Notes under the pieces: model-generated
Database searches by the model: none
Seen by the model: the letters and a program-made list of their open reading frames with translations, nothing else
What the model was told of the DNA's origin: nothing
Part shown: positions 39,109-48,979 of the stretch, piece by piece
How the letters are laid out: each line of letters begins with the position of its first letter
Position numbering within the stretch: the stretch's first letter is position 1
Program-made: the position numbers and the translations under genes
NCBI GenBank assembly: GCA_003220225.1
Contig: QHRU01000044.1
Location: 12,553 to 76,552, forward strand
Source of the DNA: Candidatus Rokuibacteriota bacterium
Lineage (GTDB): Bacteria > Methylomirabilota > Methylomirabilia > Rokubacteriales > CSP1-6
Direction: 5' to 3'
DNA: 64,000 bases

Positions 39109-39561
39109 TCAGCGGCGCGCGGCCTTGGCGATGGCCTGCGCCAGCTCGTCGGCCTCGCGCGGATCGAGCGGCAGCAGGCGCGCGTGCACCGCACGCGCGT
39201 CGTCGAGACGGCCCATCTCGACGTACGCGTGACCCAGGTACTCGAGCGCCTGCGGATAGTTCGGCCGCAGCCGGAGCGCCTCGAGATACGCCTTCACCGA
39301 CTCGTCCCAGTGGCGCTGCTGGCGCAGCGCGTAGCCGAGCCCGTTCCAGGGCTCGGGCAGCTCGGGATCGAGCTGGATCGCCTCGCGGTACTTGCGCTCC
39401 GCGGCCGCCCAGTCGCGGCGCTCGGCGAGCGCGCGTCCCTCGTTGAAGCGCGCCTGGGCGCTGACGGCGCCCCCGTCGGGCACGCGCAACGGCGGGTCGT
39501 CGACGGCGTGCGCCACCGGCGCCATCGCCAGCCACGCGAGCCCGAGCACCGTCCAGCGCAT
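39109..39561 (-). CDS. Periplasmic TPR protein
   Basis: 150 residues with a Sec signal peptide (MRWTVLGLAWLAMAPVAHA, cleavage after AHA) and about three TPR units: ARFNEGRALAERRDWAAAER, PEPWNGLGYALRQQRHWDES and PQALEYLGHAYVEMGRLDDA. ATG 39559-39561 rather than an upstream start, because the signal peptide begins there and a TACCAT box ends 7 nt before it. Co-transcribed with the haem cyclase, so it may interact with its periplasmic domain. Confidence 0.88.
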   Translation of the reverse strand: MRWTVLGLAWLAMAPVAHAVDDPPLRVPDGGAVSAQARFNEGRALAERRDWAAAERKYREAIQLDPELPEPWNGLGYALRQQRHWDESVKAYLEALRLRPNYPQALEYLGHAYVEMGRLDDARAVHARLLPLDPREADELAQAIAKAARR

Positions 39562-39568
39562 CGCGGCG

Positions 39569-39578
39569 ATGGTAGCAT
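39569..39578. promoter_or_regulatory. Bidirectional 10-bp -10 element between the TPR and acyl-CoA ligase genes
   Basis: ATGGTAGCAT. On plus, TAGCAT (39573-39578) ends 7 nt before the ligase GTG (39586). On minus, TACCAT (39569-39574) ends 7 nt before the TPR ATG (39561). The two hexamers share two bases, and the same 12 bp (GATGGTAGCATC) occurs inverted at 48146-48157. Only 24 bp separate the start codons, and neither has a Shine-Dalgarno. Confidence 0.6.
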
Positions 39579-39585
39579 CTGGCGC

Positions 39586-41088
39586 GTGAACCTGGCTCGG
39601 CTCGGAGAAGAGAGCGTCGAGCGCTTCGGCGAGTACACGGCTCTGCACTTCGAGGGGCGCGACCTCACCAACGTGGAGCAGCAGCGAACCGCCGCGCGCG
39701 TGGCGAGGGCGCTCGCGCGCATGGGCGTCAGCCCCGGCGACCGCGTGGTCGTGCTGCTGCCGAACTGTCCCGAGGTGCTCGCGGCCTACACCGGCATCCT
39801 CAAGGCCGGCGCCGTGATCGTGCCGATCGTGTTTCTCCTCTCACCGGACGAGGTGCGCCACATCCTCGCGGACTCCGCGGCGAAGGTGGTGATCACGGCG
39901 CCCGGGCTGGCGGACAAGGTCGAGGGCTGGCCCGGAGACGTGATCCTGGTGGGCGGCGAGGCCCCGGTGTCGACGATGAAGGCCGCGCGGGCGTGGGAGG
40001 AGTGGCTCGCGCGCGAGCCGGACGCGTTCGCCACCGTCGAGCGCGCGGACGGCGATCTCGCGGTGATCCTCTACACCTCGGGCACCACGGGACGGCCGAA
40101 GGGCGTCGCTCTCTCCCACGCGAACCTCGCCAGCAACGCCCGCGCGGCCGCCAGCCTCTACGAGCTCGACCGCGAGCGGTGGAGCCTCGGCGTCCTGCCG
40201 CTCTCGCACTCGTACGGACTCGTGACGCTGAACGCCGGCAACATCCTCGGCACGAAGTCGGTGCTGCTGCGCTGGTTCAATCCCGAGGCGGTGCTGGACG
40301 CGATCGCGCGCTTCCGCGTCCAGAGCATGGCCGGCGTGCCCACGATGTACGTCTACCTCCTCAACTATCCCGACGCGGATCGCTTCGACACCTCGTCGAT
40401 GCGCTCGTGGGGCTCGGGCGCCGCCGCCCTGCCCTCGGAGATCGTGGAGCCGTTCGAGAAGAAGTTCGGCGGGCGGCTGCTCGAGGGCTACGGCCTCACC
40501 GAGGCCTCGCCGGTGGTGAGCACGACCCGCCTGTCGGGGGTGCGCAAGCTCGGCTCGGTGGGCCAGCCGATTCCCGGCGTCGAGGTCACGATCCTCGACG
40601 ACGAGGATCGCGCGCTGCCCGTGGGCGAGACGGGCGAGATCGGCGTGCGGGGCCCGAACGTGATGGTCGGCTACTACGGGCTGCCCGAGGAGACGGCACG
40701 CGCGCTGCGCAACGGCTGGCTGCACACGGGCGACGTCGGCCGGCTGGATGCCGACGGCTTCCTCTACGTGGTCGAGCGGAAGAAGGACCTCATCATCCGC
40801 GGCGGCTTCAACATCTATCCGCGCGAGGTGGAGGAGGTGCTCTACGCCCACCCCGCCGTCGCGGAGGCGGCCGTGGTGGGGATGCACGATCCGCTGATGG
40901 GCGAAGAGGTGTGCGCATTCGTGGCGCTGAAGGGCGGCGCCGCCGCTGATGCCGCGGCGATCATCGGCTTCTGCCAGTCGCGGCTCGCGAAGTACAAGTG
41001 TCCGCGGGAGGTGCGCTTCCTGCCCTCGCTGCCGAAGAATCCGGTCGGGAAGATCCTGAGGAAAGAGCTGCGGACGCTGCTGCGATGA
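39586..41088 (+). CDS. Acyl-CoA synthetase (AMP-forming, long-chain fatty acid-CoA ligase-like)
   Basis: A 500-residue ANL-superfamily enzyme that adenylates a carboxylate and transfers it to CoA. The P-loop is LYTSGTTGRPKGVALSH; GYGLTEASPVVS, TGDVGRLDADGFLYVVERKK with the A5-A8 hinge, and the C-terminal catalytic lysine in NPVGKILRKELR (A10) are intact. Length and motifs fit medium/long-chain fatty acid ligases, but aryl substrates cannot be excluded. GTG 39586-39588 is 7 nt behind a -10 box with no Shine-Dalgarno. The 3' end overlaps the convergent CsbD-like gene. Confidence 0.92.
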   Translation: MNLARLGEESVERFGEYTALHFEGRDLTNVEQQRTAARVARALARMGVSPGDRVVVLLPNCPEVLAAYTGILKAGAVIVPIVFLLSPDEVRHILADSAAKVVITAPGLADKVEGWPGDVILVGGEAPVSTMKAARAWEEWLAREPDAFATVERADGDLAVILYTSGTTGRPKGVALSHANLASNARAAASLYELDRERWSLGVLPLSHSYGLVTLNAGNILGTKSVLLRWFNPEAVLDAIARFRVQSMAGVPTMYVYLLNYPDADRFDTSSMRSWGSGAAALPSEIVEPFEKKFGGRLLEGYGLTEASPVVSTTRLSGVRKLGSVGQPIPGVEVTILDDEDRALPVGETGEIGVRGPNVMVGYYGLPEETARALRNGWLHTGDVGRLDADGFLYVVERKKDLIIRGGFNIYPREVEEVLYAHPAVAEAAVVGMHDPLMGEEVCAFVALKGGAAADAAAIIGFCQSRLAKYKCPREVRFLPSLPKNPVGKILRKELRTLLR

Positions 41089-46629: not shown

Positions 46630-46929
46630 CTAATTACCGTACTGCCGCGCCAGGTATTCGGTGATCGTCTTCGCGTCGGCGTCGCTCAGGGGCGCGCCGA
46701 AGACCTTGATCATCTTCGTCACGACGCCGTCCCACTGCTTGGCGTCGCCGGGCGGCTGCGTAACGATGTAGTCGGTGGAGTGGCAGAGCACGCAGCTGCG
46801 TTGCGCGACCTCGCTGCCCGGCCCCGGCTTCAGCGTGCCGTAGGGGTGATCCGGCGGCAGCGTGATCTCCTCGGCGCCGGCGGCGCCCGCCGCAGCGAGG
46901 ACGAGGGCGAGCAGCAGGAGGCGCGTCAC
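46630..46929 (-). CDS. sorB: Periplasmic mono-haem cytochrome c, SorB-like
   Basis: 99 residues. A Sec signal peptide (RLLLLALVLAAAGAAGA) is followed by a small mature domain with the haem-binding motif Cys46-x-x-Cys49-His50 (SCVLCHSTD) and a methionine-bearing C-terminal part (KMIKVFG). Size and order match SorB, the electron acceptor of sulfite dehydrogenase. GTG start, 4 bp after the SorA stop. Passes electrons from sulfite to a terminal oxidase. Confidence 0.88.
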   Translation of the reverse strand: MTRLLLLALVLAAAGAAGAEEITLPPDHPYGTLKPGPGSEVAQRSCVLCHSTDYIVTQPPGDAKQWDGVVTKMIKVFGAPLSDADAKTITEYLARQYGN

Positions 46930-46933
46930 CGCC

Positions 46934-48139
46934 TCAGCCCACCGGATATTCGACGGACTCGATCACGTTGCGCAAGTAGCCGGCGGGGTTCCACAGCGGC
47001 TCCGTCCCCTGCGACTCGCCGATGCGGTTGAAGGCGCGCACCATCACCCGCGCCGCGCCCGCGCGCGGCGGCGTCCACGCGGCCGACCACTCGCGAAACG
47101 CGTACGGGCCGAGGTCACGACCGAGCGACACGCGCCGCCACGTGCTGCCGCCGTCGTCGGAGACCTCGACCTCGCGGATGCCGTAGCCGCCGTCGAACGC
47201 GATGCCTTTGAGCGTGACCGGGCGGCCCGCCGCCAGCCGCGCGCCCGGCTCCGGCGACACGAGGAAAGAGCGCACGTTCATGCGGTGGATCGGCACGGTG
47301 GCCTTGGGCGCCGTCCCGGGCTCCACGCAGCCGCACGGGTTGTCGGGAATCCGATAGGCCGGCTTCATCCAGAATCGCTCGAAGGGCTTGTCCGCGACGG
47401 TGATATCGGAGAGGTTCTTCACCCAGTACGTCGCGTACCAGCCTGGCACCACGAGCCGCGCCGGAAACCCGTTGAGCATCGGCAGCGGCGCACCGTTCAT
47501 CTGGTAAGCGACGATGACGTTCGGGTCGTCGAGCACGCGCGCGAGCGCGAGCGACTTCACCAAGTCCGGCACGCTGGGAAACGCCGGCTTGTCGAGCCCG
47601 TCGAAGGTCACCTCGACCGCGCCCTGGCGCACGCCCGCCGCCGCCAGCACGTCCTTCAAGCGGCAGCCGACCCACTCCGCGTTGCCCATGGCGCCGTCGC
47701 CCCACTGCCCGCCGAGCACGCGGGGCGAGAAGCGGCCCCGGCTGTTGCCCGAGCACTGGTTCACCGCGGTCACCGCCGCCGCGGGGAACCTCGTCTTCAG
47801 CTCGTCCATCGACAGCTCGAGCGGGCGGTCCACGTGCCCGCCGACGCGCAGCCGCCACGTCGCGAGGTCCACCTGCGTCGGGATCGGGAACACGTGATAC
47901 CGGACGAAGAACGCCTCGTTCGGCGTGATCGCGCGCTCGAACCACTTCATCGGCGTCTCGAGCTGCGGCGGGCGCGAGGTCAGGAGGATCAGGTCGGTCT
48001 TCTGGGGATAGCGGACGAGCGGACGTCCGGCCAGGTTGGGATCGCTCGATTGCGCCCACGCCGGCACGTGGCGGCTCGCCACGAGGGCGGCGCCTCCACC
48101 CAGGGCTCGGAGGACCTGCCGTCGGGAATACGGACCTAT
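46934..48139 (-). CDS. sorA: Sulfite dehydrogenase molybdenum subunit (SorA) with Tat signal, apparently starting at ATA
   Basis: Mononuclear Mo enzyme of the sulfite oxidase family. The Moco-ligating cysteine is in AVNQCSGNSRGRF, followed by QWGDGAMGNAEWVG and VAYQMNGAPLPMLNGFPARL. The C-terminal part is the Ig-like dimerisation domain. In frame upstream of the first GTG (48080) a Tat signal is complete, with SRRQVLRALGGGAALVAS and an AWAQ cleavage site, but the only possible start before it is ATA (48137-48139). This ATA lies exactly 7 nt behind a TAGCAT box, as do the starts of the other leaderless genes here. With it the protein has 401 residues, without it 382 and no signal. A start-codon mutation is the alternative. 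Confidence 0.88.
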   Translation of the reverse strand: MGPYSRRQVLRALGGGAALVASRHVPAWAQSSDPNLAGRPLVRYPQKTDLILLTSRPPQLETPMKWFERAITPNEAFFVRYHVFPIPTQVDLATWRLRVGGHVDRPLELSMDELKTRFPAAAVTAVNQCSGNSRGRFSPRVLGGQWGDGAMGNAEWVGCRLKDVLAAAGVRQGAVEVTFDGLDKPAFPSVPDLVKSLALARVLDDPNVIVAYQMNGAPLPMLNGFPARLVVPGWYATYWVKNLSDITVADKPFERFWMKPAYRIPDNPCGCVEPGTAPKATVPIHRMNVRSFLVSPEPGARLAAGRPVTLKGIAFDGGYGIREVEVSDDGGSTWRRVSLGRDLGPYAFREWSAAWTPPRAGAARVMVRAFNRIGESQGTEPLWNPAGYLRNVIESVEYPVG

Positions 48140-48146
48140 GGCGTGG

Positions 48147-48156
48147 ATGCTACCAT
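48147..48156. promoter_or_regulatory. Bidirectional 10-bp -10 element between sorA and the amidohydrolase gene
   Basis: ATGCTACCAT, the exact reverse complement of the element at 39569-39578. On plus, TACCAT (48151-48156) ends 7 nt before ATG 48164; on minus, TAGCAT (48147-48152) ends 7 nt before the ATA of sorA. No Shine-Dalgarno on either side. Confidence 0.6.
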
Positions 48157-48163
48157 CGCCGCC

Positions 48164-48979
48164 ATGTCGCTCAGAATCCTCGTGGCGACGGCCGCCGTCC
48201 TGCTCGGCGTGTCACCGGCGGCCGCCCAGTTCCCGATCTTCGACGCGCACATCCACTACAGCCGGCCGGACTGGACGGCCTACACGCCCGAGCGCGCGCT
48301 GTCGATCCTGGCGCAGGCGGGCGTGCGCCGCGCCATCGTGTCCAGCACACCAGACGATGGCACGCTGATGCTCTACGACCGCGCACCGGCCGGCATCGTG
48401 CCGTTCCTGCGCCCGTATCGCACGCGCGACGACATGGGATCGTGGACGCGCGACCCGGCGGTGGTGGCGTATGTCGAGGAGCGTCTCAACCGCCGCAACG
48501 TCTACCGCGGCATCGGCGAGTCGCACTTCGGCGCCGACGACGTCGAGGCGCCCACGGTGCGGCGCATCGCCGAGCTGGCGAAATCGCGCAACCTGTTCTT
48601 GCAGTGCCATGTCGACGAGACGACGGTCGAGAAGATGCTCGTCGCGTATCCTGGCGTGCGGATCCTCTGGGCGCACGCCGGCATGTCGTCGGCGGCGGCG
48701 ACGGTCGGGCGGCTGCTCGATCGGTCTCCGATGCTCTGGGTCGAGCTGGCGCTCCGCACCGACGTCGCGCCCGACGGCACGCTCGACCCGGAGTGGCGCG
48801 CGCTCTTCGTCCGCCATCCCGACCGCTTCATGGTGGGCACCGACACGTGGACGACCTCGCGCTGGGAGTCCGTGCGCCCGGCCACGGCGGCCGTGCAGCG
48901 CTGGCTGCTGCAGCTGCCGCGCGACGTCGCCGAGCAGATCGCCTGGAAGAACGGCGAGCGCCTCTTTCCTCCGCCCTGA
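48164..48979 (+). CDS. Exported metal-dependent amidohydrolase (amidohydrolase 2 family)
   Basis: 271 residues with a Sec signal peptide (LRILVATAAVLLGVSPAAA, cleavage before QFP). TIM-barrel metal ligands are His29 and His31 (FDAHIHYS), LQCHVDET, WAHAGMSS and the aspartate in MVGTDTWT, the pattern of the ACMSD/amidohydrolase 2 family. Periplasmic location is unusual for the family. ATG is 7 nt behind a -10 box. Could act as a decarboxylase, lactonase or esterase; no more can be said. Confidence 0.85.
   Translation: MSLRILVATAAVLLGVSPAAAQFPIFDAHIHYSRPDWTAYTPERALSILAQAGVRRAIVSSTPDDGTLMLYDRAPAGIVPFLRPYRTRDDMGSWTRDPAVVAYVEERLNRRNVYRGIGESHFGADDVEAPTVRRIAELAKSRNLFLQCHVDETTVEKMLVAYPGVRILWAHAGMSSAAATVGRLLDRSPMLWVELALRTDVAPDGTLDPEWRALFVRHPDRFMVGTDTWTTSRWESVRPATAAVQRWLLQLPRDVAEQIAWKNGERLFPPP

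Follow-up and report, generated by a model that had tools for sequence, protein, structure and literature searches.

How is the sulfite dehydrogenase gene sorA translated when its reading frame encodes a complete export signal and no ordinary start codon precedes that signal? The gene lies on the minus strand of a 64,000-nt stretch of DNA, analysed here as a whole and referred to as the window, which is part of contig 18 of the 6.03-Mb draft genome, in 167 contigs, of a soil bacterium of the Rokubacteria (G000); the genome-wide counts below come from about 1.05 Mb sampled from this genome. The sorA frame is open from an in-frame TGA at 48214-48212, and neither the 24 codons between this stop and ATA 48139-48137, nor any other codon in this frame upstream of GTG 48082, is an ATG, GTG or TTG. 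The first ordinary start is thus GTG 48082-48080, which falls inside the signal peptide. The ATA is the first codon of a complete Tat signal (SRRQVLR...AWAQ) and is followed by GGT CCG TAT TCC CGA CGG CAG GTC CTC CGA..., read as (I)GPYSRRQVLRALGGGAALVASRHVPAWAQ. Translation therefore bore out the preliminary description of this locus, which had placed a full Tat signal in frame upstream of the first GTG and had found ATA in place of ATG, GTG or TTG ahead of it. The features of sorA and its neighbour sorB are the following.

46934..48139, minus strand: sorA reading frame, 401 codons from the ATA, with GTG 48082 as first ordinary start (identified by NF052245, PF00174 and 2blf)
48137..48139, minus strand: ATA codon at the orthologous ATG position, aligned to the ATG of the sister species G001/L004 (88% identical, same genus)
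48050..48139, minus strand: Tat signal peptide IGPYSRRQVLRALGGGAALVASRHVPAWAQ, with the motif S-R-R-x-V-L and the site AWA/Q (translation and alignment with orthologous Tat signals)
48080..48082, minus strand: GTG, alternative internal start, with an SD-like GGAGG at 48093-48097 and 10 nt spacing
46630..46929, minus strand: sorB, intact gene for the c-type cytochrome partner (CVLCH), starting at GTG (NCBIfam SorB NF052246, 98 bits, cut-off 93)

The protein encoded by this frame scored 557 bits against the NCBIfam SorA model (NF052245), below the equivalog cut-off of 600, with SorT as the next best NCBIfam match at 171 bits, and 182 bits against PF00174 in a Pfam profile search. The solved SorA structure 2blf_A was matched at E=4e-130 over residues 51-409, a near full-length match in which the conserved Cys region NQCSGNSRG is aligned between the two proteins. 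Since the intact SorA of the sister species L004 itself reaches 559 bits on NF052245, short of the same cut-off of 600, the shortfall is a property of the clade and not damage, and by these scores the two proteins form a SorA-like clade slightly below the equivalog cut-off. The sorB gene lies directly downstream of sorA, the adjacency that characterizes SorAB. A SoxC-type sulfite dehydrogenase is encoded in the same genome (G000:C99 46787-47269, L197; 581 bits, cut-off 420), as are three further PF00174 proteins besides SorA and SoxC, and these four may lower the cost of losing SorA.

One way to dispense with the ATA would be inward initiation at GTG 48082, which is the choice of a gene caller. 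Its SD-like GGAGG 10 nt upstream could aid such a start, and the sister species has neither element at this place. The resulting protein, however, would be a cytoplasmic SorA devoid of the twin arginines, so that the Tat motif kept by homologs would be lost, while a partnership with cytochrome c implies that the enzyme acts outside the cytoplasm; moreover, in this GC-rich gene GGAGG is also spelled by the ordinary codons GGT GGA GGC. We therefore regard a start at this GTG as improbable.

The surroundings of the ATA are those of a leaderless gene. TAGCAT at 48152-48147 is separated from the ATA by a 7-nt spacer (CCACGCC), and no GGAGG Shine-Dalgarno (SD) sequence occurs in the 25 nt before ATA 48139. 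Upstream of sorA, the following features are packed between two divergent genes.

48147..48152, minus strand: TAGCAT, -10-like box 7 nt before the ATA (TAnnnT is enriched 6-8 nt upstream of starts, and the 10-mer recurs where other genes begin)
48151..48156, plus strand: TACCAT, -10-like box ahead of the divergent amidohydrolase gene, sharing TA with the sorA box (TACCAT conserved in L004)
48140..48163, no strand: divergent gap of 24 nt (7 + 10 + 7) with an AnnnTAnnnT core, a layout repeated at window 39562-39585
48164..48979, plus strand: divergent amidohydrolase-family gene starting at ATG 48164 (PF04909, 39.2 bits, cut-off 26.4)

Across 822 genes called by codon usage in the 1.05 Mb, TAnnnT was most frequent 7 nt ahead of ATG, with 26 cases where other distances gave about 4, and 6 nt ahead of GTG, with 14 cases. 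It stood 6-8 nt before the start in 69 of 813 genes compared with 18-30 at control spacings, which argues that this genome does contain leaderless genes. The 10-mer ATGGTAGCAT was found three times in the 1.05 Mb, each time at a gene start, where about 0.4 occurrences are expected from composition by our own calculation; the third of these words, at L079 3652-3671, lies 9 nt before an ATG start. Given this spacing and the presence of ATGGTAGCAT at gene starts, the ATA occupies the place expected of a leaderless start, as the preliminary description had held in likening its position behind TAGCAT to that of other leaderless starts; that transcription begins from this box is what we infer from the layout. 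Thus, sorA has a -10-like box 6-8 nt before its start and lacks an SD, and departs from leaderless genes in carrying ATA instead of AUG or GUG at the predicted 5' end.

The box itself is shared between two genes. At 48147-48156, ATGCTACCAT reads TACCAT on the forward and TAGCAT on the reverse strand, with 7 nt to ATG 48164 on one side and 7 nt to ATA 48139 on the other, such that the amidohydrolase gene's own -10 has the TAGCAT of sorA as its reverse face; in L004, the reverse strand of the conserved TACCAT reads TAGCAC. A consensus sigma-70 scan of 47950-48350 returned no promoter on either strand and no -35 support. An ATG at 48156 opens a six-codon frame within this region (ATG GTA GCA TCC ACG CCA TAG), whose stop overlaps the ATA (A-TAG), and initiation there could in principle reach sorA by a frameshift or by re-initiation onto the ATA. 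This ATG, however, coincides with or precedes the sole -10-like box and has neither a slippery site nor an SD, and the segment is a divergent promoter that is conserved and non-coding in L004. We rejected the frameshift on the grounds of the missing slippery site and the position at the promoter, and consider any use of this ATG extremely unlikely.

In relatives of this organism, sorA begins with an ordinary start codon. Among 12 orthologs from the same family (73-88% identical; a thirteenth, L027, was excluded as its match begins late), sorA starts with ATG in 11 and with GTG in one (L023), and in same-genus L004 the ATG falls at the exact codon aligned to the ATA, as had been anticipated in the preliminary description. 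The flanks of the two codons read GCCATGGG against GCCATAGG, with GCCAT[A/G]GG conserved and a gap-free alignment up to the twin arginines. Two of the relatives show start regions of their own kind. In L023 (the same gene as L098), ATA GTG CGG stands opposite ATG GCG CGG of L021, and from this alignment an ATG seems to have turned into ATA and the start to have shifted to the next codon. In L027 (apparently the same gene as L103), the signal region and the mature part are not joined in one open frame and a GTG start lies upstream in a different frame, likely owing to a frameshift or a sequence error.

The comparison with L004 extends beyond the start codon. Its ATG is preceded by a -10 (TATAGT), a short leader and an SD (GGAGGACGGCC), and the window shows one 45-nt gap relative to L004 into which both the -10 and the SD fall; this 45-nt deletion is deduced from a single sister species, and alternative gap alignments, possible in themselves, need several indels. 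As SD-led sorA leaders recur in other genera (L006, L021, L023, L026), such a leader is probably ancestral. The arrangements TATAGT + 7 nt + ATG in L025 and TAAACT + 8 nt + ATG in L020 suggest that leaderless sorA genes arose independently in these relatives. Two points were absent from the preliminary description, namely that the promoter and SD present in the sister species have been lost and that TAGCAT overlaps the -10 of the opposite gene.

We thus propose that an ordinary SorA gene with its own promoter, SD and ATG would have lost approximately 45 nt containing that promoter and SD, a loss that would have set its ATG immediately after the reverse half of the -10 region belonging to the divergent gene, in a leaderless layout. 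In a second and recent step, ATG would have become ATA, creating a start-loss allele from which little or no exported SorA is expected. What is directly observed is an ATG at the homologous codon, the lack of the leader, a leaderless context and an intact coding region; the order of the two steps, the recency of the second and the reduction in expression are what we infer from them. That sorA is a leaderless gene with either a recent, real ATG to ATA change or an error in the consensus is, taken jointly, probable, and both readings have in common that the working start of sorA is ATG and not ATA. A recent, real start-loss allele in an already leaderless sorA has, taken by itself, close to an even chance of being true.

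The coding region bears signs of sustained selection. For mature SorA, dN was 0.06 and dS 0.59 (dN/dS of about 0.1), and polarised amino-acid changes numbered 22 on the window branch versus 29 on the sister branch, with 2 on the window branch, as in the sister, at columns invariant in the other orthologs. Stops, frameshifts and relaxed selection were not found in sorA, and a very recent loss would leave no such trace. With a dS of about 0.29 per branch and about 800 non-synonymous sites, some 240 changes would be expected had the whole branch been neutral, so that by a rough estimate, in which multiple hits are ignored, at most about 5% of the window branch may have been neutral. This lack of decay (22 changes against about 240) implies that the start loss is recent, false or not disabling; it is equally compatible with a still-working start, and the ATA itself is represented by one genome of this species.

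A false start loss would mean a consensus or base-call error, with the organism or most of its population having ATG and sorA being a plain leaderless gene. The sequence is one base away from a perfect leaderless ATG, the sister species has ATG at the same codon, sorA has not decayed, and the assembly is a draft of 167 contigs with metagenome-derived relatives. There is, however, no sign of a raised error rate. Among 101 ortholog pairs between G000 and G001, 63 had an identical start position, and sorA was the one clear case in which an ATG of the partner faces a non-start codon and no substitute lies close by. The other pairs among the 38 whose predicted starts differ were judged by eye to be alignment or boundary problems. 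An error is hence possible, though we hold it to be fairly unlikely.

A start loss that is not disabling would imply leaderless initiation at the ATA itself, with the transcript beginning at or just before this codon, AUA acting as a weak 5'-terminal start and a low amount of SorA sufficing. The codon stands exactly at the expected leaderless start, 7 nt behind TAGCAT, and sorA with its Tat signal, like sorB, is intact and under constraint. Natural AUA starts are known in S. aureus (infC, ccpN and citZ), with roughly 10% of the output of AUG (PMC13009471), and the present genome tolerates an unusual start as well: in each of the three genomes of the genus (L202, L201, L203), infC has no ATG, GTG or TTG and instead a conserved ATC (3/3 species) after TAGGAGACGTCC/T, preceded by the SD TAGGAGA, so that IF3 in this genus very probably initiates at ATC, to judge from this alignment. 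The S. aureus cases, however, were reported alongside SD-led initiation with strong extended SDs (PMC13009471), whereas sorA has no SD. At the leaderless position in M. smegmatis, only ATG or GTG was functional, accounting for all but 547 of 343,242 reads (PMC4633059), and leaderless GUG, UUG and CUG are already much weaker in E. coli (PMC9031893). At a 5'-terminal start, the published mycobacterial selections and the findings from E. coli admit no codon other than AUG/GUG (or AUG), and leaderless initiation at the ATA has no support beyond the position of this codon. Among 61,358 ancestral AUG starts, 363 switched to GUG, 113 to UUG, 2 to CUG and 1 to AUU, with AUA not mentioned in that survey (PMC5622118).

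The genome of the window points in the same direction. The ATA is conserved in 0 of the 12 orthologs and has no strong SD, in contrast to genuine non-canonical starts, and no second leaderless ATA start was found in the 1.05 Mb, where 51 in-frame ATA codons lie close to a called start and one of them, that of sorA, has a TAnnnT box at 7 nt. On these counts, and at the power available, we rejected the idea that this genome regularly uses ATA to start genes. Of the two readings offered in the preliminary description, a mutated or mis-called start was thus strengthened by the ATG of the orthologs and the lack of decay, and leaderless initiation at ATA was weakened, being a lone case, without an SD and not conserved. 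We consider initiation at this ATA unlikely, and slightly more doubtful still the general form of the idea, that Rokubacterial ribosomes would start on the 5'-terminal AUA of leaderless mRNA without an SD, the weak start keeping sorA low.

Opposed, overlapping -10-like elements between divergent genes are present at 48147-48156 and 39569-39578, and a similar pair in L042. In a genome-wide scan, the exact 24-nt symmetric pattern with ordinary starts occurred at 2 sites (1 in the window) versus 1 for a reversed-pattern control, such that the exact 7/7 spacing is not itself enriched; with ATA on one side it occurred at 3 sites, sorA among them. When looser spacing was admitted, several divergent gene pairs carried a shared AnnnTAnnnT core. 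Pairs with 24-27 nt between starts and one such core lie at window 39561-39586 and L042 17365-17390, and likewise at L030 8902-8930 and 16210-16238, apparently leaderless or nearly so on both sides.

If the recent start loss is real, sorA would be another enzyme gene silenced or weakened while the organism retains a SoxC homolog, and would caution that automated gene calling cuts sorA down to a protein without its signal. If AUA does work at sorA, leaderless initiation would extend beyond AUG/GUG, contrary to the mycobacterial selections, where leaderless mRNA was served only by AUG and GUG. The by-product may carry more weight: divergent, apparently leaderless pairs in which a single overlapping -10 element is common to two genes with about 24 nt between them.

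Several known systems resemble this locus in part. Like the SorAB sulfite dehydrogenase (2blf), it combines the enzyme family, a Tat signal and a downstream cytochrome c partner, differing in its 557 bits versus the 600-bit cut-off and in no protein feature that bears on the start codon. It shares with infC, which starts at ATC in this genus and at AUA in S. aureus, a start outside ATG/GTG/TTG; the infC ATC is conserved in three species and SD-led, and the ATA of sorA is neither. The citZ AUA of the S. aureus NCTC 8325 lineage is likewise lineage-restricted in an otherwise intact gene, but its translation was measured (PMC13009471), whereas sorA has a leaderless layout and no SD, and any translation from its ATA is hypothetical. 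Leaderless genes of mycobacteria (PMC4633059) and those reviewed elsewhere (PMC9031893) also have a -10 about 7 nt before the start and no SD, and begin with AUG or GUG where sorA has ATA. Finally, in bidirectional promoters whose -10 elements overlap (PMC10268837 and references therein), the opposed -10s have bases in common, as here; TSS spacing in those promoters is typically 18 bp and positions -7/-11 are shared, whereas the AnnnTAnnnT core upstream of sorA predicts a spacing of about 23 bp between two leaderless starts.
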